In this document: positions 18,620 to 32,106 of the stretch, in pieces
Layout of the letters: each line of letters opens with the position of its first letter
How positions within the stretch are numbered: position 1 is the stretch's first letter
Assembly: GCA_021825805.1 (NCBI GenBank)
Contig: JAKAGF010000002.1
Span: 1 to 33,771, forward strand
Reading direction: 5' to 3'
DNA: 33,771 nucleotides
DNA from: Nitrospirota bacterium
Lineage (GTDB): Bacteria; Nitrospirota; Thermodesulfovibrionia; Thermodesulfovibrionales; UBA6898
Translations under genes and position numbers: made by a program
The notes under the pieces: model-generated
What the model was told of the DNA's origin: nothing
The model's input: the letters and a program-made list of their open reading frames with translations, nothing else
The model's database searches: none

Positions 18620-19561
18620 TTACGTTTCTATAGTAGCCGTCTGTCGCAAATTCGTGACGTCGCGTAACGGCGAATTGCCAAACAGACGGCTGTACTCCCG
18701 GCTGAATTGGGAGGGGCTCTCATAGCCGACCTGAAACGCCGCGGTTGTCGCATCCTGATTTTCGGCGAGCATCAATCGCCGCGCTTCGTTCAAACGCAGC
18801 CATTTCCGGTACTGCAGCGGGCTCATGGCCGTCAGCGCCCGGAAGTGATGATGGAAGGTCGAGGTGCTCATATTGACTTGCGCTGCGAGGTTATCGATAT
18901 GCAACGGCTGTGTGAAGTTACCCTTCAACCAATAGATCGCCCGCGCTATCTGATGACTCTGACTTCCCGCCGACGCCATCTGTCGCAGACGAGCGCCTTG
19001 ATCGCCCACAAGCAAACGGTAAAAAATTTCCCGCTGGATGATCGGCGCAAGGATCGGGATGTCTTTTGGCTCATCAAGCAAGTCGATCAACCGTTGAAAG
19101 GCGGTGAGCAGCGGCAATGTGACTTCGCCGGTCGCCATTCCACGGCTCGATTGCTGCGGACGCGGCGGGGGCAGATTGCTGTCCACCATCAGTTGTGAAA
19201 TCTCGCGCTGATCAAGTTTCAATATGAGCCCCAGGTAAGGCTTCTCCCGGCTCGCATTGATAACCTGCACAACCGTGGGCAGATCCACAGACGTGATTAA
19301 AAAATGCCGGGGGTCATACACATACGTATCGTCTCCGAGCAGCACGCGTTTGGCCCCTTGCGCGATCATGCAAATACGGGGTTCGTACATGATGCTCGTC
19401 GGCCGGCTCGGTTCGTCCCGGCGATAAAGTGACAAGCCCGGGACCGCGGTCATGCGCTGGTCGTCTTTATCGGTCCATCGGGCAATGCTCTTTCCCAACG
19501 TTTCGAGCGCAACTTCCACTGCATTATTTTCAAACGCCTGCTTGACAGCCTGCTTACCCAT
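18620..19561 (-). CDS. AraC-family regulator with AraC-type N-terminal domain
   Basis: C-terminal HTH LHIDNLAAQVNMSTSTFHHHFRALTAMSPLQYRKWLRLNEARRLM...AAFQVGYESPSQFSREYSRLFG. Confidence 0.92.
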   Translation of the reverse strand: MGKQAVKQAFENNAVEVALETLGKSIARWTDKDDQRMTAVPGLSLYRRDEPSRPTSIMYEPRICMIAQGAKRVLLGDDTYVYDPRHFLITSVDLPTVVQVINASREKPYLGLILKLDQREISQLMVDSNLPPPRPQQSSRGMATGEVTLPLLTAFQRLIDLLDEPKDIPILAPIIQREIFYRLLVGDQGARLRQMASAGSQSHQIARAIYWLKGNFTQPLHIDNLAAQVNMSTSTFHHHFRALTAMSPLQYRKWLRLNEARRLMLAENQDATTAAFQVGYESPSQFSREYSRLFGNSPLRDVTNLRQTATIET

Positions 19562-19627
19562 AAATAACTCCTGTTTGATATTACCAGATCCCGCTTCGCC
19601 GTAACAGCCCAATTATCAAAGATGTTG

Positions 19628-19680
19628 GATGATTAGGCAAGAAATGAACAGGATTGGTCTACCTGCCTTTGTTCTTTCAG
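19628..19680. promoter_or_regulatory. candidate AraC-regulator operator, copy 1
   Basis: GATTAGGCAAGAAATGAACAGGATTGGTCTACCTGCCTTTGTTCTTTCAG, nearly repeated at 27081-27130. Confidence 0.55.
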
Positions 19681-19758
19681 AAGTACAATATAATTATCAA
19701 CAGGGCGGCAAATAAATGTGAGCAACCTCTGCGAAACAGTTCGACCCTTAATAGATGA

Positions 19759-20751
<993 letters not shown>

Positions 20752-20783
20752 GCGCCGCCTTGTTAAGAAAGCGGCCTGAATTA

Positions 20784-20802
20784 GGGTTCTGTGGCAACTT
20801 TC
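20784..20802. mobile_element. possible solo IS6-family-like terminal inverted repeat
   Basis: GGGTTCTGTGGCAACTTTC resembles the GGTTCTGTTGCAAAGTT ends of IS6-family elements; no transposase and no partner end seen. Confidence 0.25.
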
Positions 20803-20895
20803 GATTTTGAGTGCCTACTCCTGAATTCAGCCGGAAAACACGCTGAGAACCAACCCCGTCAAATGCCTTCCTGACTGCTTTTCCACACAAACTGC

Positions 20896-20931
20896 TTGAC
20901 AATTGTCACGCGTCACGTTACAATTGTCACG
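20896..20931 (+). promoter_or_regulatory. higBA-like promoter with two overlapping operators
   Basis: TTGACA (20896-20901), 17 bp, TACAAT (20919-20924); ACAATTGTCACG repeated at 20899-20910 and 20920-20931, the first within the palindrome GACAATTGTC. Confidence 0.75.
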
Positions 20932-21212
20932 TGATAAAGACGTTTGCCGACAAACACACCTATGGCTTCTATGCCACCGGCAAGTCCAGGCGTTTGCCGG
21001 CTGACCTGTTGAAACGCGCCATGCGGCGGCTGGAATATATAGACCTGGCATCAAGACTGGAGGATTTAAAGGTCCCTCCCGGCAACCGGCTCCACGCTTT
21101 GAAAGACGACCGGGAGGGCCGGTACTCCATTTCAATTAACGACCAATGGCGTATCTGCTTTCGCTTTAAAGACGGCGATGCATATGACGTCGAAATAACC
21201 GACTATCATTAA
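20931..21212 (+). CDS. higB: HigB/RelE-family toxin
   Basis: RLHALKDDREGRYSISINDQWRICFRFKDGDAYDVEITDYH is typical of the HigB (RelE-fold) family; GTG start; paired with HigA. Confidence 0.92.
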   Translation: MIKTFADKHTYGFYATGKSRRLPADLLKRAMRRLEYIDLASRLEDLKVPPGNRLHALKDDREGRYSISINDQWRICFRFKDGDAYDVEITDYH

Positions 21213-21222
21213 GAGGTGTACG

Positions 21223-21537
21223 ATGGCTATTGCAAACAAAGAGGTGCGAACGGTGAAACCTACCCATCCGGGAGAAATGCTTCGCGAGGATTTTCTCCCC
21301 GATTACGAGCTTAGTGCGGCGAGCCTCGCCGATGCCCTTGGCGTTTCCCGTCAAACTGTCAACGAGATACTGCGCGAACGCCGGGCGGTTTCACCTGCCA
21401 TGGCATTGCTGTTATCGCGCCTGTTCGGCAATTCGCCCGAGTTCTGGCTGAATGCCCAGCGTGCAGTCGATCTTTGGGAAGCGAAAAAGCGCCAGGACAA
21501 GAAGCTCAAACGAATACAGCCTTTGAATGCCGCTTAG
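21223..21537 (+). CDS. higA: HigA-family antitoxin (XRE HTH)
   Basis: THPGEMLREDFLPDYELSAASLADALGVSRQTVNEILRERRAVSPAMALLLSRLFGNSPEFWLNAQRAVDLWEA. Confidence 0.94.
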   Translation: MAIANKEVRTVKPTHPGEMLREDFLPDYELSAASLADALGVSRQTVNEILRERRAVSPAMALLLSRLFGNSPEFWLNAQRAVDLWEAKKRQDKKLKRIQPLNAA

Positions 21538-21659
21538 GTTGACTGGCATGGTTGGAGCGAGCTGCTTAAACATCCGTGCAGACTTTCCTTAGAAGCTGTA
21601 TCGTGCTCAAACGGTCGAAGCTTCATGTAAAAAAAGACGTACGATGAGAGGAGTTAAAA

Positions 21660-23780
21660 ATGCCGGACATCATTAAGAATATAGCGTCGCAGCTGCCGCA
21701 GCCGTCTTTGCCTCAGCCAGAGCACGAAGCTGGCGAGATACTACGCAGTCTGGTTGATGAGGCCGCCTATGTTGGGGAGGTTGTGTCTCTCGGCTACAGT
21801 GAGGCCATACTTCAGATCCACGATTTTCATCGACAACGAGTCGGGGGTATCCCGGCACTCTGTTTCCTGCTCGGTTCGCGTGTGAATCCACAAGTTACGC
21901 CAGACCCAAGAGCTGAAGACTCATCAGTTATCCTGATGCGCGTTATGGATCATGCCGATCTACCAAACGCTGAAGAAGCCAAGCGTGTCCGCGTGGAAAA
22001 TGCACAAAAAGTGAGTGGCGAGGTAGGAGTGAATTGGGATGACCGCACAGTAATGGACGCGACAACACATCATCTTTTGAGTTATGCCGGTGTACGATGC
22101 CGCGTGATTGGTACTTTCTATATGGCTAATCTTGGTGATGATGCTGCACCGAACTGGCAATTGTGTTTCGGCTCGGACATCAGTAACTATTATCCAAACC
22201 GCGGCTTGAAAGTATTTAAACCTCGCGGAGACGTTTTGGAACGCATTGTAAATTACCGCGATCCGATGATATTTTCAGGATTACGAATACCAATGGTACA
22301 TACGGGCCATGTGCGTTATGCTTCCACTAATCGCCGATTTCAGCAGGTGGCCAATGTGCCAGTATCAGTAACACCTACAGATTTATTGGGTCAGAAGACC
22401 GCTTTGTTCGGGATGACGCGTACTGGTAAATCCAATACTACGAAAATTGTTTTGAAAGCTATTTTTGAATTACGTTGGGCAGCCACTGACGCCTTGAAGA
22501 TCGGGCAACTTATATTCGATCCAAATGGTGAATATGCAAATGAAAACACACAAGACGCGAGCACAGGCAGTGACAATCCAAATGCAATTAAGAACGTCTG
22601 GAAATGCGCGCCCCCTAACGTGCAAGCAGGTTTTCGAAAAGATGTCATTACTTATGGGATTACGAAACACCCGAACGATCCAGAGCGAATTCTGATGTTG
22701 CTTAATTTCTATCAAGATCAGAATTTACAGACCGGCAAAGAAATTATTAACGCCGCCCTAACTGAACGAGCTATTGGTCGCATTTATATTTCTAATTTCA
22801 TAGACGTTAACTTCCAATTGCCCGAAGACGCTGATAATGGTGACAAAGTGCGATATCGGCGACGGGTGATGTTCTATCGCGCATTACTACATGAGGCCGG
22901 CTTCGGAAAACCACCTCTAAAAGAAGCAAGATTGGAAGGCTTATTTAATAAAGATTTGAGAAAAGCGTTGAACTCAAGTAAATCAAAAGAGGCGCAAAAA
23001 TATCAGGCATGTGCAGCAATATTTGAAAAAGAGATGGCGTCTTGGACTGAAGTCGCACAAGCAGGAAAGATTCTACATGAATTTATTGAAGATAAAACGT
23101 CTGGCTATCAGGAATTTGAAGCTGAATATGTCAAACAGAGTTCGTCAGGATTTTGGGCTGATGATGCTTTGAAGAAAACTCTTGGCATTTGGGGGTACCC
23201 GAATGGCCCCAAGTTGATTAGTGCTGTTAAAGAGCAACATACCAGCGACACACACACAGACTATGCTGATGATATTTATGCACATTTGCAGGCTGGTCGG
23301 CTTGTTATCGTTGATCAGTCGAGTGGTAATGCGGAAATCAACAAAGCGGCAGCAGATAGAATTATTCTGAAAATATTTGAGAGAAATAAAGCGCTGTTCC
23401 GTCAGGGCGATAGAAGGCCGGAAATCCTGGTCTATATTGAAGAAGCTCATAACACCTTACCACCAGCAAAGGAAGACGATCTTACAGATATTTGGGTGCG
23501 TACGGCAAAAGAAGGTGCAAAATACAATATCGGATTGGTTTATGCGACTCAGGAAGTATCTTCAATTCAAAAGAATATTCTTCGGAACACTGCCAATTGG
23601 TTCATTGGTCATCTGAACAACACTGATGAGACGAGGGAGCTTCGAAAATTCTATGACTTCGCTGATTTCGAAAACAGCATTCTACGTGCACAGGACCGCG
23701 GATTCATCAGAATGAAGACACTGTCAAATCCCTATATTGTTCCGATCCAAGTTGATCGCTTCAACATTCAAGAGGGCTGA
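21660..23780 (+). CDS. herA: HerA-like FtsK/HerA-superfamily ATPase (DUF87)
   Basis: 706 aa; Walker [14 protein letters not shown], Walker [17 protein letters not shown]-terminal [30 protein letters not shown]. Confidence 0.88.
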
Positions 23781-23785
23781 GAACT

Positions 23786-25129
23786 ATGCCATACGAGGGA
23801 GAATACGCTCATTACCAACCGCTGAAACGCATTGTCGAGTCCGAGCGTGTCCAGCAATTACTCCGCAGATCCCGTGTGCTTGATCCGGCAACGCTGACGC
23901 ATCACGCGACGCCCAAAACGCCACCCGTTGCCGATAAAACGTTACCATCTCTCGTGTTGGCGATTGACGGGAGCAACGCAGAAGTAGATGTTCGTAATGG
24001 ATATCCGGGAGCAAAGGTCGGGTACTGTTCAGTGGCTTCTGTTGTCCTAAATCTCGATGAAGTTGAACGGCTTGATGAAAACCGGCCCGTGAACCCGATA
24101 GAATTTCGTCGCACAGAAGACTTGTCGTCTGATGCCTGTGCTCTTCCGGGTTGTAATGTTATTACTCGAGACCATGTTGCGGCAAAGGATTCTTTTCGAG
24201 AGGCAGTCTTCGACCTACTTCATGACGCAATTGTTGATGAAGAAGACAACACGCGGTTGCTTGCGACGTATCAAGCGCTTCTCAGGTATAAACCGGAAGG
24301 GACAATTAGCTGCCCTTACACGCATCTCGGTTGTGAGCGTCAGGTATCCATTATGGAACATCTTAGCACGTGCACATGTGGGAGAAAAAAACCTCTGTTT
24401 CCAACAGATGCGTTACGCATTCACGAGCGATTCAATGACGAATCGGGAAGCAATGGAGAAGCCTTTGGCTATGTGCGCGGCGTTTGGGAACACCTTCTGC
24501 TGATTCACTTATTGAGATGTTTCGAGCAACGCAATTGGTTTGATCGTCTCGGGTCCATTGCCTTTTTCCTCGACGGACCCTTGGCTGTATTCGGGCCGCC
24601 CGCTTGGATGAGTGCTGCTATGAAGAAGGAATTACAGCGTTTGAATGCGGTTGTTCGAGAGAAAACTGGCAATGACATGATTATTGTAGGTATTGAAAAG
24701 TCTGGTAACTTTGTCGCACATTTCGCGGATATTGACAAACGGGATGATGGCGGCCAGAACTTTCAACCTGAGTCATATTTCCTTCCGACAGATGCTTACA
24801 TCAAACAGCGAATTATTTTTTCAGACAGCGATAAACAATATGGTAAGGATACTTACTTTGGCAGAAAGTTATTCTATAAGACGAAGAGTGGGGCGCAAAT
24901 CGTAGCCAACATTCCATTTCTGTCATCTGAACAGGATACGCTTGATAGCGATGATCCTTCGCTTTATCCTCGTTTTGGAACAATCTGTGCGCTGCTTGAC
25001 AAGCTGGTAACTTCACGTTTTCCGAATGCGCTTGGTCCAATTGTCAGCGCACATGCGCAAGCCTCTATCCCGCTGCATCTAGGCCAGAAAGTGCTGAAAC
25101 AACTGGCTCAGGCGTTAATGCGAAAATGA
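23786..25129 (+). CDS. nurA: NurA-domain nuclease
   Basis: SLVLAIDGSNAEVDVRNGYPGAKVGYCSVASVVLNLDEVE and IAFFLDGPLAVFGPPAW; 5 nt after herA-like gene. Confidence 0.82.
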   Translation: MPYEGEYAHYQPLKRIVESERVQQLLRRSRVLDPATLTHHATPKTPPVADKTLPSLVLAIDGSNAEVDVRNGYPGAKVGYCSVASVVLNLDEVERLDENRPVNPIEFRRTEDLSSDACALPGCNVITRDHVAAKDSFREAVFDLLHDAIVDEEDNTRLLATYQALLRYKPEGTISCPYTHLGCERQVSIMEHLSTCTCGRKKPLFPTDALRIHERFNDESGSNGEAFGYVRGVWEHLLLIHLLRCFEQRNWFDRLGSIAFFLDGPLAVFGPPAWMSAAMKKELQRLNAVVREKTGNDMIIVGIEKSGNFVAHFADIDKRDDGGQNFQPESYFLPTDAYIKQRIIFSDSDKQYGKDTYFGRKLFYKTKSGAQIVANIPFLSSEQDTLDSDDPSLYPRFGTICALLDKLVTSRFPNALGPIVSAHAQASIPLHLGQKVLKQLAQALMRK

Positions 25130-26232
25130 TTAAAACTGAGATCACCATATCACGCTATGGAACTGCTGCAAGCCGATGGGCAGGCGTCGGCCCATACTAT
25201 GCCATGTTCCCAGTAAATTTTGCGACTGCGGCCGTGAGGGAATACACCAAGCCCGGCGATGGCGTCTTTGATCCGTTTGCCGGACGCGCTACTTCTCTAT
25301 TCGCAGCTGCTTCCGAGGGGCGTATTGGATTGGGAATTGAAATTAATCCTGTTGGATGGGTTTATGGCAAGGCAAAGTTGCAGACGGCAGCGCGAGCAGA
25401 TGTTGAACAGCGCATCGAATGGCTGGGCAAAAGGGCGAAGAATTACCGAGCCGCTGCAAAAGGATTGCCTGAGTTCTTTACGTACTGCTACTGTTCTAAG
25501 GTCCGGGAATTTCTTTTGGCGGCTCGCGATTTACTATGCTGGCGTCGTGCAAAAACTGATTGGACAACAATGGCGTTACTTCTTATCGATTTACATGGAA
25601 AGAGAGAAAGTGCCTTATCGAATCAGATGCGACAAACAAAAGCAATGTCGCCTCAATATGCGATTGGCTGGTGGAAGGAGAATAAACTGGAGCCGCCAGA
25701 GCGTAATCCCGTTGAGTTCATGCTTAAGAAAGTGGCGTGGCGATACGCAAGGGGACGTTTAGAGGCCAGCGAGGGGCGCGTTTATTTGGGAGATTCACAA
25801 CTCATTCTTGCAAGATGGGAAAACAATGCGCCAAAACAAAGGGCGACCCTTCTGCTCACGTCTCCACCTTATCATGGAGTTACAAATTACTTTTATGACC
25901 AATGGCTGCGGTTATGGTTGCTCGGTGGGTCGGAAAAGTTCTATAGCACTGGTGAACCTTGTAAACGAAAATTTGATAATAAGAAACACTACATTGCCAT
26001 GCTATGCCGAGTGTTCACGAAGTCAAAGCCTCTACTGAAGCGTAACGCAGTTGTGTATGTGCGCACTGACGCACGCCAATTTACCAGAGAAGCAACAATT
26101 GAAGCTCTTGAGACTGCTTTTCCTCAAAAGAGGTTGCGTGACGAGCGGTTCTCGTTGCCAGCATTCTCTCAAACCGCCTTGTTTGATTCAGCTCGGGAAC
26201 CGAAAGGTGAAATTGATTTCGTAATGTGGTAA
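25126..26232 (+). CDS. SAM-dependent DNA methyltransferase
   Basis: Motif I GVFDPFAGRATSLFAAASEGRIGLGIEINPVG and motif IV LLLTSPPYHGVTNYFYDQWLRLW; overlaps nurA stop by ATGA. Confidence 0.87.
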   Translation: MIKTEITISRYGTAASRWAGVGPYYAMFPVNFATAAVREYTKPGDGVFDPFAGRATSLFAAASEGRIGLGIEINPVGWVYGKAKLQTAARADVEQRIEWLGKRAKNYRAAAKGLPEFFTYCYCSKVREFLLAARDLLCWRRAKTDWTTMALLLIDLHGKRESALSNQMRQTKAMSPQYAIGWWKENKLEPPERNPVEFMLKKVAWRYARGRLEASEGRVYLGDSQLILARWENNAPKQRATLLLTSPPYHGVTNYFYDQWLRLWLLGGSEKFYSTGEPCKRKFDNKKHYIAMLCRVFTKSKPLLKRNAVVYVRTDARQFTREATIEALETAFPQKRLRDERFSLPAFSQTALFDSAREPKGEIDFVMW

Positions 26233-26271
26233 TAGAACCAAAGCGACATGCCAAAACTGTCCTCAAGACAA

Positions 26272-26899
26272 ATGACCAACACTCTCTATACCATCGGCTA
26301 TGCAACTCGTTCCCTCGACGATTTCATTGTTCTTCAGCCGCAATCCGCAATTCAACCGCGAACTGCTCAAACAGTCGCTGAAATCTCATAATATCGAGTA
26401 TGTATTTCTTGGCGAGGAACTTGGCGCACGGCCAAAAGACCTGTCATGCTATGTCGAAGGGAAGGCAATCTATGAAAAGATTGCTGCTACGCCGTTGTTT
26501 AAAAACGGGATAGAACGCGTTAAGCTCGGAATTAAGAAAGGTTACACTCTTGCTCTTATGTGCGCAGAGAAGGACCCGATGACGTGTCATCGAACGATAT
26601 TAATATGCAGAAATCTACGAGGACAGGGCATTGATATCCGGCATATCGTCGATCTGAAAACCATGGAGACGCAAACGGAACTGGAGAAGCGATTGATCGC
26701 TCAATTGAAGCTTCACCCCGATATATTCAAAGACACGGAACCGGATGCTCTCATCGAACGCGCTTATGAAGTGCAGGGCGACAAAATAGCTTTCGTAGAG
26801 AAAAGCAAACGGGAACCGGATAAAATAACGGCGGATACGGTGAAAGAAGAGCATGAGCATACGTCCCCTGAATTCATGACGAAAGTAAGAACGTATTGA
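26272..26899 (+). pseudogene. DUF488-family protein, apparently frameshifted with a small internal deletion
   Basis: Frame 1 from 26272 gives MTNTLYTIGYATRSLDDFIV; after a frame switch, the 26300..26899 frame gives SRNPQFNRELLKQSLKSHNIEYVFLGEELGARP...LALMCAEKDPMTCHRTILI. The typical DVR-containing segment between them is missing. Confidence 0.72.
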
Positions 26900-26919
26900 A
26901 AGGCGGCATCGCCGCTGTC

Positions 26920-27015
26920 GTCGCGGTCATTTGGGCAATGCTCTTTCCCATAGCTTCAAGCGCACTTTCCATGCTGGGATTTTAAAATGCCCGCTTTTAC
27001 AGCCGGCATACCCAT
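26920..27015 (-). pseudogene. remnant of the N-terminus of a second AraC-type regulator
   Basis: Reverse complement gives MGMPAVKAG... then, after a frameshift, MESALEAMGKSIAQMT, matching MGKQAVKQAFENNAVEVALETLGKSIARWT of the 18620..19561 gene. Confidence 0.8.
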
Positions 27016-27080
27016 TTAAATCTCCTCCCGTATTTTGCCACCTCACTTTGCAGAACACTCCATTAATCGAATAATCGGAC

Positions 27081-27130
27081 GATTAGGCAAAAAATGAGCA
27101 GGATTAGTCTACCTGCTATTGTCCTTTCAG
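27081..27130. promoter_or_regulatory. candidate AraC-regulator operator, copy 2
   Basis: GATTAGGCAAAAAATGAGCAGGATTAGTCTACCTGCTATTGTCCTTTCAG, nearly identical to the 19631-19680 segment. Confidence 0.55.
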
Positions 27131-27205
27131 GGGTAGGATATGATCATCCAACGAGGGTGATTTTGGTCCCCGGGCAAAATCTGTTTAACAACGGAGGAAA
27201 AAACA

Positions 27206-28270
27206 ATGACAATGAATGTACTTGGTTACGCAGCACAGTCCGCAAAGGACACCCTGGCCCCATTTCGCTTTGAACGCCGCGATCAGCGGCCTGACGACGT
27301 GGCTATCGAGATACTCTACTGTGGCGTATGTCATTCTGACCTGCATACCGTCCGCAATGACTGGGCCAGTTGGTTTCCCACGACGTACCCAGTCGTGCCC
27401 GGCCATGAAATTATTGGCCGCGTGACAAGCGTCGGAAAGGATGTCAAACGCTTCAAACCGGGAGATCATGTCGGTGTCGGCTGCATGGTCGATTCCTGCC
27501 GGAAGTGCACAGCCTGCGAACAGGGACATGAACAGTATTGCTCGGAGATCGCGACATTCACCTACAACCATCTTGACCGCCGTGACAAGATGCCGACCTA
27601 TGGCGGGTATTCAGAAAAAATCGTGGTATCGGATAAGTTTGTCCTGAAGATCCCCGATGGGCTGGACCTGAAAGGGGCAGCGCCTCTCCTGTGCGCAGGC
27701 ATCACCACATGGTCGCCGCTTCGCCACTGGAAGGTGGAAAAGGGCAGCAAGGTGGCGGTTGTCGGCCTCGGCGGACTGGGTCACATGGCGCTGAAGCTTG
27801 CGAATGCGCTGGGCGCCGATGTCACGCTGTTCACCCGTTCAGCGGGCAAAGAGAAGGACGCGCGCCGTCTGGGCGCCCACAATGTCGTGCTCTCTACCGA
27901 CAAAGGCCAGATGGCATCCGTGCAGGGACGTTTCGATCTGATCATCGATACCGTGCCCTATGTCCATGACCTCAACCACTATCTGCCGACGCTGACGATC
28001 AACGGCACGCTGGTGCTTCTCGGGTACGTGGGCGATCTGGAGTCGATGCTGAGCACTGTTCCCTTGGTGATGGGGCGGAGATCGGTCGCAGGGTCCGTCA
28101 TCGGAGGCATTGCCGAGACCCAGGAGATGCTCGACTTCTGCGGCAAGCATGGCATCACGTCCGATATTGAAGTGATCAATATCCAGGATATCAATCAAGC
28201 GTATGAACGCATGCTGAAAAGCGATGTGAAATACCGCTTTGTGATCGATATGGCATCGCTGAAGGCGTGA
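27206..28270 (+). CDS. zinc-dependent NAD(P) alcohol dehydrogenase (YahK/cinnamyl-ADH-like)
   Basis: CGVCHSDLHTVRNDW, VPGHEIIGRV, GCMVDSCRKCTACEQGHEQYC, VVGLGGLGHMALKLA. Confidence 0.93.
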   Translation: MTMNVLGYAAQSAKDTLAPFRFERRDQRPDDVAIEILYCGVCHSDLHTVRNDWASWFPTTYPVVPGHEIIGRVTSVGKDVKRFKPGDHVGVGCMVDSCRKCTACEQGHEQYCSEIATFTYNHLDRRDKMPTYGGYSEKIVVSDKFVLKIPDGLDLKGAAPLLCAGITTWSPLRHWKVEKGSKVAVVGLGGLGHMALKLANALGADVTLFTRSAGKEKDARRLGAHNVVLSTDKGQMASVQGRFDLIIDTVPYVHDLNHYLPTLTINGTLVLLGYVGDLESMLSTVPLVMGRRSVAGSVIGGIAETQEMLDFCGKHGITSDIEVINIQDINQAYERMLKSDVKYRFVIDMASLKA

Positions 28271-28298
28271 TAGACTTGATAGAGAAGGAGAAAATACA

Positions 28299-28406
28299 AT
28301 AGAGATAAAACGAAGCGGCTCACAACCATCCGGCAAAGGACCGGCAGAGTATCTCACCGGAACGGTGCGTGTTGATCCGCTGTTCAACCCGCCCGATCCC
28401 GTCCGC
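28299..28406 (+). pseudogene. truncated cupin-family gene remnant
   Basis: Frame reads (ATA)IEIKRSGSQPSGKGPAEYLTGTVRVDPLFNPPDPVR, the typical N-terminus of cupin proteins linked to such ADH/AKR genes; start codon is ATA and the cupin core is missing. Confidence 0.7.
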
Positions 28407-28556: not shown

Positions 28557-29033
28557 ATGAAATACCTCTCAATAGGACAACTGGCAAAACAGGCGGAAGT
28601 CAATATCGACACGATCCGCTACTATGAGCGAAGAGGGCTGCTTTCCCCTCCCCGGCGAAAGGAATCCGGGTACCGGCAATATCTTGACGATGCCATCGTC
28701 CGCATCCGCTTTATCAAACATGCTAAGGAGCTCGGCTTTTCCCTTGATGAGATAGCCGAACTTCTCTCCTTAAAGCTCAATCCTAAGACGAAGTGCGGGG
28801 ACGTCAAGAATAGGGCACAGGAAAAGATCAGCGAGATCGAGGGTAAAATTCAGATGCTTGAGAGGATGCGGCTGACCCTTGTTCGGCTGACGAAGATGTG
28901 CGAAGAGGGGAAGCAAGTGAGCGAATGTCCGATACTGGACGCGTTAAACCAGAACGTGGGGAAGGAAATTGAAATGACTCTAAAATCGGGGATGATAACT
29001 ATTCGTCCCCTCTTAGAAAGGAGCAAGCGATGA
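28557..29033 (+). CDS. merR: mercury-responsive regulator MerR
   Basis: MerR HTH IGQLAKQAEVNIDTIRYYERRGLLSPPRR; metal-site Cys pattern KCGDVK ... MCEEGKQVSECPIL. Confidence 0.88.
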   Translation: MKYLSIGQLAKQAEVNIDTIRYYERRGLLSPPRRKESGYRQYLDDAIVRIRFIKHAKELGFSLDEIAELLSLKLNPKTKCGDVKNRAQEKISEIEGKIQMLERMRLTLVRLTKMCEEGKQVSECPILDALNQNVGKEIEMTLKSGMITIRPLLERSKR

Positions 29034-29296
29034 CGAAACGCAAAATTGAAGTCTTCAGCGCCGGATGCCCTGTGTGTGAGGACGCGATAACGCTGGTTAA
29101 GGGAATGGCCTGCCCCTCATGTGACGTTCAGGTCCTCGACATGAAGAATCCGGAGGTGACGGAAAGGGCCAAGAATCTCGGAATCCGTTCCGTGCCCGCT
29201 GTTGTCATCGACGGCAGGATCGCGGATTGCTGTGCAGGACGGGGCATTGATGAGAACACGCTGAGAGCGGCAGGGGTCGGTAGCCCGCTAAAATGA
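29030..29296 (+). CDS. thioredoxin/glutaredoxin-like protein in mer operon
   Basis: KIEVFSAGCPVCEDAITLV with CPVC, IRSVPAVVIDGRI; ATGA overlap with merR. Confidence 0.8.
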   Translation: MTKRKIEVFSAGCPVCEDAITLVKGMACPSCDVQVLDMKNPEVTERAKNLGIRSVPAVVIDGRIADCCAGRGIDENTLRAAGVGSPLK

Positions 29297-29345
29297 GAGC
29301 ACGTGGACAAACGACCGCAGTCCACACAGGCGGAGGAACACTTTT

Positions 29346-29681
29346 ATGAAGAAAGAAAACATATCAAGCATAGGAACCGTGATCGCATCGTTGCTTGCGA
29401 CATCATGCTGCATCGGTCCGGCTATCTTCGTAATCTTCGGAACCTCGATAGGGTTTCTCTCGAAACTGGCGTTCCTGACTGCCCTGAGGCCGTATCTTCT
29501 GGGGGGCGCATTTCTCATGCTCTCGTATTCTTTCTGGAAACTCTATCTCAAGAAGCCGCATTGCGCCTGCGCTGAGGACATACGTACGCGAAAGATTGCC
29601 CGCGTGATCTTCTGGATAGGCTTTGCCGGATTAGTCTTTGCCTCTTCATTCCAGAAGGTCATTGTCTGGATTTATGGATAG
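29346..29681 (+). CDS. merT: mercuric transport protein MerT
   Basis: IASLLATSCCIGPAIFVIFGTSIGFLSKL, three TM segments, CAC loop. Confidence 0.87.
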   Translation: MKKENISSIGTVIASLLATSCCIGPAIFVIFGTSIGFLSKLAFLTALRPYLLGGAFLMLSYSFWKLYLKKPHCACAEDIRTRKIARVIFWIGFAGLVFASSFQKVIVWIYG

Positions 29682-29690
29682 GAGGTTGCT

Positions 29691-30017
29691 ATGATGGAAA
29701 AGAGGATGGGAAGATGGATAGTGAATATTATTACGGTGTCACTGTTGTCCTTGTTGCTTATCACGGCATACGTTGAAGCAGCCGAACGGCAGGTAGTCAT
29801 AGAGATCGAGGGAATGACCTGCGAGTTATGCCCCGTTGCGATCAAAAAATCCATGGAAGGGATTAAGGGTGTCAAAACGGTTAAGGTGTCTTTCGAGGAT
29901 AAAAAGGCGTGGGTGACAGCGGAAGAAACGATCACTGACGATATGCTTTTGACCGCTGTTCAAAAGACAGGACCGTATACAGGCAAAGTAATAGAAAGGA
30001 AGCCTGCTGACAGATAA
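29691..30017 (+). CDS. merP: periplasmic mercury-binding protein MerP
   Basis: Signal peptide and HMA motif IEGMTCELCPVAIKKSMEGIKGVKTVKVSFEDKKAWV. Confidence 0.87.
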   Translation: MMEKRMGRWIVNIITVSLLSLLLITAYVEAAERQVVIEIEGMTCELCPVAIKKSMEGIKGVKTVKVSFEDKKAWVTAEETITDDMLLTAVQKTGPYTGKVIERKPADR

Positions 30018-30038
30018 ACTTTTGATGAGGAACATGCA

Positions 30039-30269
30039 ATGAAGAAAGAACAAACTCCACCAAGGTCTAGACTATACGTCACGATTGCAGGGACAATACT
30101 CGTGGCAGTATGCTGCTTCGCAACGATCATGGCCGTTACCTTCGGTGCAACAGGGCTGAGCGCTCTTACGCCCTATTTTTATTATGTCCTTTTTCCGGCC
30201 TTAGCCGCGCTCGTAATTTTTATTTATCTTCCTTACAGGAAATGGAAAGATATCCGGAAGCGACAATAA
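30039..30269 (+). CDS. MerF-like small membrane protein
   Basis: LYVTIAGTILVAVCCFATIMAVTFGATGLSALTPYFYYVLFPALAALVIFIYLPYRKWK; one CC pair, two TMs. Confidence 0.72.
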   Translation: MKKEQTPPRSRLYVTIAGTILVAVCCFATIMAVTFGATGLSALTPYFYYVLFPALAALVIFIYLPYRKWKDIRKRQ

Positions 30270-30292
30270 TCGAAGCTTAATGGAGGTGGAGT

Positions 30293-31699
30293 ATGAAAAC
30301 TACGTTTGATCTGATCATTATCGGCGGCGGGGCGGGCGCCTTTGGCGCGGCTATCCGGGCCAATGAGCTCCATGCAGATACAGCAGTCATCAACGGCGGG
30401 CTGCCTCTCGGCGGCACTTGCGTGAATGTCGGTTGTGTCCCATCAAAGACGCTCCTTTACGCAGGCGAGATATTGCATCTTGCAAGGCATCACGGCATTC
30501 CGGGAATCGATATTGAGATAAAAAACTTCGATTTCCAGAAGGTTGTTCAGGATGAACTTGCCTTAGTAGAAATGCTGCGCAAAGAAAAATACGACAAGGT
30601 GTTCAATAGTCTCAAGCATGCAACGTTCTTTGAAGGGAAAGCTCAGTTCATCTCTAAAAATGAGGTGGACGTAAACGGCCGGATACTCAAAGGAGACAAA
30701 TTCATCATCGCTACCGGATCAACAACATCAGTACCGCCGATTGAAGGCATCCACGACGTAGGTTTCTTGACCCATATCGAGGCATTGAAGCTGGAGAAGC
30801 AACCAAAGGAACTGATTGTGATCGGCGCAGGACCCCTTGGACTCGAATTCGGACAGATGTATGCCCGCTTCGGCACAAAGGTAACGATTCTTGAACGTCT
30901 GAATACCGTCTTCCCTCCCTCCGAAAAGGAATTGGTGGACCGCCTTGCTCAAGTCATCATCCGGGAAGGCATAACAGTCAGGACAGGAGTTACCGTCAAG
31001 ATGGCATGGAAGCAAAACGGAAAGAAGATACTTTCATATGTGGCTGACGGTAAAGAGGAAGAGGTCTCGGGTGATGAGATATTGCTGGCGACAGGTAAAA
31101 CTTCCAATACCCAGGGACTCGGACTTAAAAATGCCGGGGTCGAAATCGACAAAAGACAAGTAATTATTGTGAACCGATTCATGCAAACATCTCAGCCGCA
31201 CATTTTTGCGGCCGGCGACGTGATTAACCTTCCTTTGCGCCTTGAGATAACCGCCGGGCATGAGGGGACGCTTGCCGCTGAAAATGCCCTGAGTGATGCG
31301 CAAAAGGGCATCGATTATGACACCGTGCCTTACACCATTTTTACCGATCCCCAGCTTGCCGGGGTCGGCTTCACGGAAGAGGAGCAGATGAGGAAAATTG
31401 GTGTATGTGAGTGTCGCACTGTCTCGTTTGCCGATGTGCCGAAGGCGATAATCACGAAACGAACAGAAGGACTGATCAAAATGGCTATTCATCCTGAAAC
31501 GCGACAGATCATGGGCGTCCATATTCTTGCACCTTACGCAGGCGAATTGATTGCCGAAGCGATGATGCTGGTGAGGAATAAGAATACTGTTGACGATGTT
31601 GTAGATTCGCTCCCCATGTTTCCGACGCTTTCGGAGTCGATAAAACTTGCGGCTCTTTCCTTTACCAAGGACATTTCAAAATTGAGTTGTTGTGTATAG
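30293..31699 (+). CDS. merA: mercuric reductase, lacking N-terminal HMA domain
   Basis: GGTCVNVGCVPSK redox site, FAD/NAD domains, C-terminal KLSCCV. Confidence 0.92.
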   Translation: MKTTFDLIIIGGGAGAFGAAIRANELHADTAVINGGLPLGGTCVNVGCVPSKTLLYAGEILHLARHHGIPGIDIEIKNFDFQKVVQDELALVEMLRKEKYDKVFNSLKHATFFEGKAQFISKNEVDVNGRILKGDKFIIATGSTTSVPPIEGIHDVGFLTHIEALKLEKQPKELIVIGAGPLGLEFGQMYARFGTKVTILERLNTVFPPSEKELVDRLAQVIIREGITVRTGVTVKMAWKQNGKKILSYVADGKEEEVSGDEILLATGKTSNTQGLGLKNAGVEIDKRQVIIVNRFMQTSQPHIFAAGDVINLPLRLEITAGHEGTLAAENALSDAQKGIDYDTVPYTIFTDPQLAGVGFTEEEQMRKIGVCECRTVSFADVPKAIITKRTEGLIKMAIHPETRQIMGVHILAPYAGELIAEAMMLVRNKNTVDDVVDSLPMFPTLSESIKLAALSFTKDISKLSCCV

Positions 31700-31713
31700 G
31701 CACAGGAGGAATC

Positions 31714-32106
31714 ATGAGAATCGACTGCTATATATCACAGGGATGCGGCTCCGAGGAGGCGTTAAAAGAGAACATCGCGCGTGCCCTGGAGGCTGAAAAG
31801 ATTCATGCCGAGGTAAATATTCACCGGATCAGCGATGCAAAGGCGACTGAATTAAATCTCAGCGGATCGCCCTCGATATTTATTGACGGGAAGGAATTGC
31901 AGCCATCGGGCATTGCCGGATTCTCTTGAAGGATGTTCGCTGACGAGTCAGGAAGGCTCGTGAATGTGCCGTCAGTGGAGACGTTGCGAAAGGCGATGAA
32001 AGATAATGACTGCGAAAGAAGGGATGCATTTGGCAAGGAGCAGCCTCCGAAAAGTCCCATAGATCAGAGCGGCGAAACGGTTAGGGGCAGACCGGGGGAA
32101 TTTTGA
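31714..32106 (+). CDS. thioredoxin-fold mer-associated protein, putative selenoprotein (in-frame TGA at 31927-31929)
   Basis: ATG at 31714 after AGGAGGA; MRIDCYISQGCGSEEALKENIARALEAEKIHAEVNIHRISDAKATELNLSGSPSIFIDGKELQPSGIAGFS-U-RMFADESGRLVNVPSVETLRKAMKDND..., open for 58 codons past the TGA; hairpin follows the TGA. Confidence 0.72.
31936..31954 (+). promoter_or_regulatory. candidate bacterial SECIS hairpin
   Basis: TTC-G-CTGA-CGAG-TCAG-GAA (7 paired bases, one bulge, 4-nt loop with G at position 2); loop begins 14 nt after the TGA. Confidence 0.5.

Follow-up and report, generated by a model that had tools for sequence, protein, structure and literature searches.

An AraC-type gene remnant and its divergent operator between defence-type cargo and an alcohol dehydrogenase gene in a Nitrospirota bacterium

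The locus analysed in this study raises the question of how the first codons of a regulator gene, together with a divergent control region, came to lie between a block of unrelated genes and an intact alcohol dehydrogenase gene (ADH). The window, the whole stretch of DNA that was analysed (33,771 nucleotides), is one entire contig of its assembly, and its features are collected in Table 1. A sequence-only reading had claimed that a frameshifted homolog of the first ~30 codons of the intact AraC gene (AraC1) lies upstream of ADH on the minus strand, with a BLAST comparison as the check. Significant similarity is indeed present. The sole significant off-diagonal match of 26401-27600 within the window runs by BLASTN from 26924 to 27148, or to 27157 under looser scoring, against 19471-19698/19705 on the same strand, with 73% identity over 230-239 columns (E 1e-27 to 1e-35). 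The similarity as a whole spans 26924-27157 and is weaker up to ~27186. A search of the genome to which the window belongs (2.69 Mb in 253 contigs) returned no third copy of this AraC 5' region, giving two copies in total.

Table 1. Coordinates of the features discussed, in window positions.
Feature	Position	Strand	Remark
AraC1, intact paralogue	18620..19561	-	AraC_N PF06719 + AraC HTH
AraC1/AKR divergent control region	19562..19770	.	other operator copy, core 19629-19692
AKR, aldo/keto reductase	19771..20751	+	adjoins ADH in G042, G021, G173
Interposed cargo, six ORFs	20752..26899	+	between AKR and stub
Candidate 10-bp direct repeat CCTGAATTCA, left copy	20820..20829	+	weak
HigB (HigB-like)	20931-21212	+	cargo
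HigA	21223-21537	+	cargo
HerA-like ATPase	21660-23780	+	cargo
NurA-like nuclease	23786-25129	+	cargo
DNA methylase	25126-26232	+	cargo
DUF488	26272-~26861	+	cargo; 53-bp internal deletion, ORF continues to 26899
Junction zone	26861..26924	.	from where DUF488 similarity stops to the first secure AraC2 match
Candidate 10-bp direct repeat CCTGAATTCA, right copy	26867..26876	+	weak
AraC2 stub	26924..27019	-	second AraC gene of PF06719 type, codons 1 to ~32 (perhaps 40)
AraC2 leader	27020..27078	-	ribosome-binding site (TCTCCTCC on + strand); 2-bp deletion, shared with the G014 stub alone
Divergent operator/promoter region	27079..27142	.	retains 33/33 positions invariant in the intact control regions of ten relatives
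ADH 5' leader + ribosome-binding site	27143..27205	+	promoter-type similarity fades within it
ADH, zinc alcohol dehydrogenase (PF08240/PF00107)	27206..28270	+	intact

Reading the frames bears out the homology that BLASTN detected. On the minus strand (27015-26925), frame 0 opens with MGMPAVKAG and then goes out of frame, with a +1 frameshift near codon 8, and frame +1 carries on with MESALEAMGKSIA, for which the counterpart in the intact AraC1 is MGKQAVKQAFENNAVEVALETLGKSIA. All of this second AraC gene (AraC2) except its start has been lost, as had been proposed, with ~30-40 N-terminal codons left. The AraC_N and HTH domains are both gone, and no single frame encodes one followed by the other. 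Judged by what is left of it, AraC2 is a relic of an AraC_N-type (PF06719) regulator gene and no member of that group, and the coding part of the stub is dead. The frameshift alone was not necessarily fatal, because an in-frame ATG lies downstream of it at codon ~14. AraC1 itself is an AraC_N regulator that passes the Pfam cut-offs (AraC_N 194 bits, HTH_18 78 bits).

The best-conserved section of the match is the operator part, which is a conserved control region between an AraC start and its presumed target gene, as in divergent operators. Within it, 27081-27130 nearly repeats 19631-19680, much as the sequence-only reading had stated, with ~7/50 positions differing in the control-region alignment. 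The coding stub and leader retain 38/44 of the invariant positions, and the extra conservation of the operator over the rest of the stub (0/33 versus 6/44 lost) is marginal. Towards ADH, promoter-type similarity fades at ~27157-27186, and likeness to the DNA upstream of relatives' ADH genes begins at 27175-27193. Purifying selection acts on ADH (dN/dS 0.07), AKR (0.06) and AraC1 (0.14-0.18), and for ADH it is strong; the nearest NCBIfam model for ADH is the aldehyde reductase Ahr (314 bits, below the cut-off of 470). Given an intact operator and the selective constraint on ADH, the relic operator likely serves at present as a second AraC-responsive promoter, through which intact AraC1 would drive ADH in trans. 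It may be speculated that a leftward transcript from the AraC-side promoter of the stub would run antisense into DUF488.

Gene order in relatives shows what is displaced in the window. ADH protein identity is 93-96% in G042, G021 and G011, and 86% in G025. Both G042 and G021 possess a single AraC divergent from AKR-ADH-SDR-cupin, with an AKR-ADH gap of <100 bp and no cargo, and in G173 the order is again AraC divergent from AKR-ADH, without cargo or a second AraC. As AKR and ADH are adjacent in these relatives, the cargo in the window separates genes that are neighbours elsewhere. A short piece after ADH (28252-28399) matches the start of the cupin gene, which lies downstream of the SDR gene in G042 and G021; SDR is lost in the window and cupin cut off, and the right end of the operon has therefore decayed too. 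Beyond it, at 28557-31929, lies a mercury-resistance-like group consisting of MerR, a thioredoxin-like protein, MerT, a MerP-like small protein and a pyridine nucleotide-disulphide oxidoreductase.

The earlier interpretation holds in part, and its proposal that an ancestral AraC-operator-ADH unit existed here is supported. AraC lies directly divergent from ADH at four GTDB loci (L040, L046, L047 and L063), and in G025 an AraC split into two frames directly faces ADH, so that an AraC start facing ADH is a known alternative arrangement that supports such a unit; the locus is best read as having had a second AraC that faced ADH. The predicted empty site, with AraC-ADH intact beside AKR, was not found in 177 order-level genomes; in the cargo-free relatives AKR and ADH instead adjoin, accompanied by a single AraC. 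Searches with the AraC protein covered 177 order-level genomes, and those with the stub DNA covered 177 at order level plus 396 at phylum level; as none returned an intact AraC1-AKR-AraC2-ADH tandem, we infer the ancestral state. Several genomes carry the AraC of this operon in broken form: G206 has an internal deletion of codons 31-256 (L158 1878-2129), 3' pieces of AraC and AKR have been brought together in G014 (L037 1485-2142) and G112 (L197 6744-7607), and the frame is broken in G025 (L036 5769-6664) and G042b (L136 8307-8586). Draft-assembly errors may lie behind some of these copies.

Within the cargo, the DUF488 gene has a 53-bp deletion that shifts the frame relative to G239, which belongs to another family of the phylum; the ORF runs from 26300 without the N-terminal part and overruns the natural end, and in all probability the gene is broken or truncated. 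In G239 a similar AraC-AKR operon is followed by HigA and an intact DUF488, which adjoin with ~50 bp between them (window 21208-21536 and 26335-26790 versus L156 1388-2395), whereas in the window HerA-NurA-methylase separates the two. This set may possibly be a nested insertion in the window, or may have been lost in G239. The idea that such an insertion removed the first ~36 codons of DUF488 was dropped, since alignment shows the start of the gene (26272) to be present. Just before HigB, at 20897-20929, lies an inverted repeat (TGACAATTGTCACG / CGTTACAATTGTCA), through which the TA pair likely regulates itself. Comparison of the cargo with known plasmids gave weak matches only.

The TA and HerA block does abut the remnant, and the junction zone encloses the 26900-26920 interval suggested earlier. 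DUF488 similarity reaches 26834 against G219 and ~26858-26861 against G167. Below the secure start of AraC2 similarity, an extension towards ~26905 is only suggested, its score being reached by 2/300 shuffles against AraC1 and by 4 to 50/300 against other references. At the left edge (20752-20930), comparison of the window with relatives gave no match to AraC genes that could represent the remaining part of AraC2, and no alignment was obtained with the corresponding stretch of G014.

G014, a genome from the same family as the window and another genus, carries a homologous stub. Its order is the 3' part of AKR, 2.2 kb of different cargo (a Gp49-like toxin with an HTH_37 antitoxin, an HSDR_N protein and a PRiA4_ORF3 protein), an AraC 5' stub with operator, and the last 77 codons of ADH. 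In an alignment of twelve control regions, an extra T near AraC codon 8 and the 2-bp deletion in the AraC leader are confined to these two stubs. Both stubs break off in the range of codons ~32 to 40, only a few codons apart. The control-region tree pairs them with moderate support (88/83), and single-base indels can arise twice; the AKR piece of G014 groups with the AKR genes of the window, G206 and G198 (90/90). As the G014 stub is broken at almost the same codon and has the two indels in common, beside unrelated cargo, decay of AraC2 probably predates both cargoes. On the simplest reading, the common ancestor had an AraC2 that was damaged and perhaps cut by then, and each cargo arrived or was altered afterwards. 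These findings point either to an event of greater age, after which the cargo turned over, or to a spot prone to insertions.

The stub had been described as the scar of this particular TA and HerA insertion, such that the present island entered an intact AraC2-ADH unit, deleted the body of AraC2 and left its mark at 26900-26920. The block directly abutting the stub agrees with this, as does the candidate 10-bp direct repeat CCTGAATTCA near both edges. That repeat, however, is weak and was the only product of the search for target duplications and inverted repeats at the edges, and 10 bp was reached in 22/1500 shuffled zones and 33/1500 random zone pairs of the window, meaning that it is expected by chance in ~1.5-2.2% of comparisons. 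None of the six cargo ORFs encodes a recombinase or transposase of the kind that a transposon or integrative element would carry. The G014 stub, with its other cargo, its nearly identical end and the two private indels in common, further counts against the island as the cause, and we regard this origin of the stub as unlikely. It is likewise doubtful that TA and defence cargo lands repeatedly in the gap between AKR and the stub in this family and is tolerated there since the relic operator keeps ADH under AraC1, with the stub being a selected rescue promoter and no passive scar.

AraC2 may, on the other hand, never have been whole at this site, if the ancestor was AraC1-AKR-ADH and a foreign piece of AraC 5' end and operator, which came with the cargo or recombined with it, is now the ADH promoter. 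The window ADH is by sequence in the AKR-ADH group, being closest to the ADHs of AKR-ADH operons (G042, 92% nucleotide identity) and not to that of the AraC-ADH arrangement in G025. This counts against the reading preferred below and would fit capture of a control region too, and the likeness to ADH upstream DNA of AKR-ADH operons begins only beside the ADH ribosome-binding site. The same order in G014, however, would require capture to predate the common ancestor, and AraC directly facing ADH recurs elsewhere, making capture quite improbable. That the contig instead joins pieces of two related AraC loci is very improbable indeed: whilst the assembly is fragmented into 253 contigs and broken AraC copies are frequent in the draft genomes here (G206, G112, G042b and G025), the stub differs by 27% from the only other copy in its genome, too far apart to confuse, another, independent genome has a similar layout, and ADH and stub are joined through a shared leader.

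We therefore consider it probable, with real room for doubt, that 26924-27186 is the remains of AraC2 and of a divergent control region that once stood back-to-back with ADH, followed by decay, filling with cargo and control of ADH in trans. The ancestral locus would have held two AraC control regions, with AraC1 facing AKR and AraC2 facing ADH, or else AraC2 may have faced an AKR2-ADH pair from which AKR2 has since been lost. AraC2 would then have decayed through the frameshift and the loss of ~90% of the gene, and foreign cargo (HigBA, the HerA-NurA-methylase set and DUF488) would have filled the space between AKR and the stub. ADH, severed from the AKR transcript, would now probably be switched on by AraC1 in trans through the surviving operator. 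The homology, the frameshift, the conservation of the operator, the gene orders in relatives, the indels in common with G014 and the constraint on ADH are observed directly, whereas the order of these events, the mechanism of deletion and the control in trans are what we infer.

The stub by itself is ordinary, routine genome decay with a plausible regulatory twist. The locus does, however, offer a readable case of operon break-up, in which a regulator paralogue dies and defence-type cargo fills the gap, and in which the surviving operator may keep the distal part of the pathway within the regulon. The G014 stub with its unrelated cargo makes the order of events testable through more relatives. 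The single AraC_N regulator divergent from an alcohol dehydrogenase and an aldo/keto reductase resembles YqhC and yqhD-dkgA of Escherichia coli, where such a regulator lies opposite genes for an aldehyde reductase and an aldo/keto reductase. YqhD is an iron-type alcohol dehydrogenase, whereas the ADH here is zinc-type, and unlike yqhD-dkgA the two enzymes are split by 6.4 kb of cargo and stub, each with its own copy of the control region. In E. coli, one YqhC binding site lies in the divergent spacer (PMC8249747), and this site was bound in gel shifts (EMSA; PMC8262776). A DNA-level link to that operator was set aside, as the operator described here has no match in E. coli genomes.

The cargo also resembles HerA-NurA anti-phage modules, with adjacent genes for a HerA-like ATPase and a NurA-like nuclease accompanied by a methylase and a DUF488 gene, yet the HerA here falls far below the NCBIfam cut-offs for anti-phage HerA, and its DUF488 is broken by the 53-bp deletion. 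A truncated native gene beside TA and defence-type genes is, moreover, what is seen in pseudogene remnants at the borders of genomic and defence islands. Unlike the usual border remnants, this one retains what looks like an intact operator, and its homologue in a second genome adjoins unrelated cargo.
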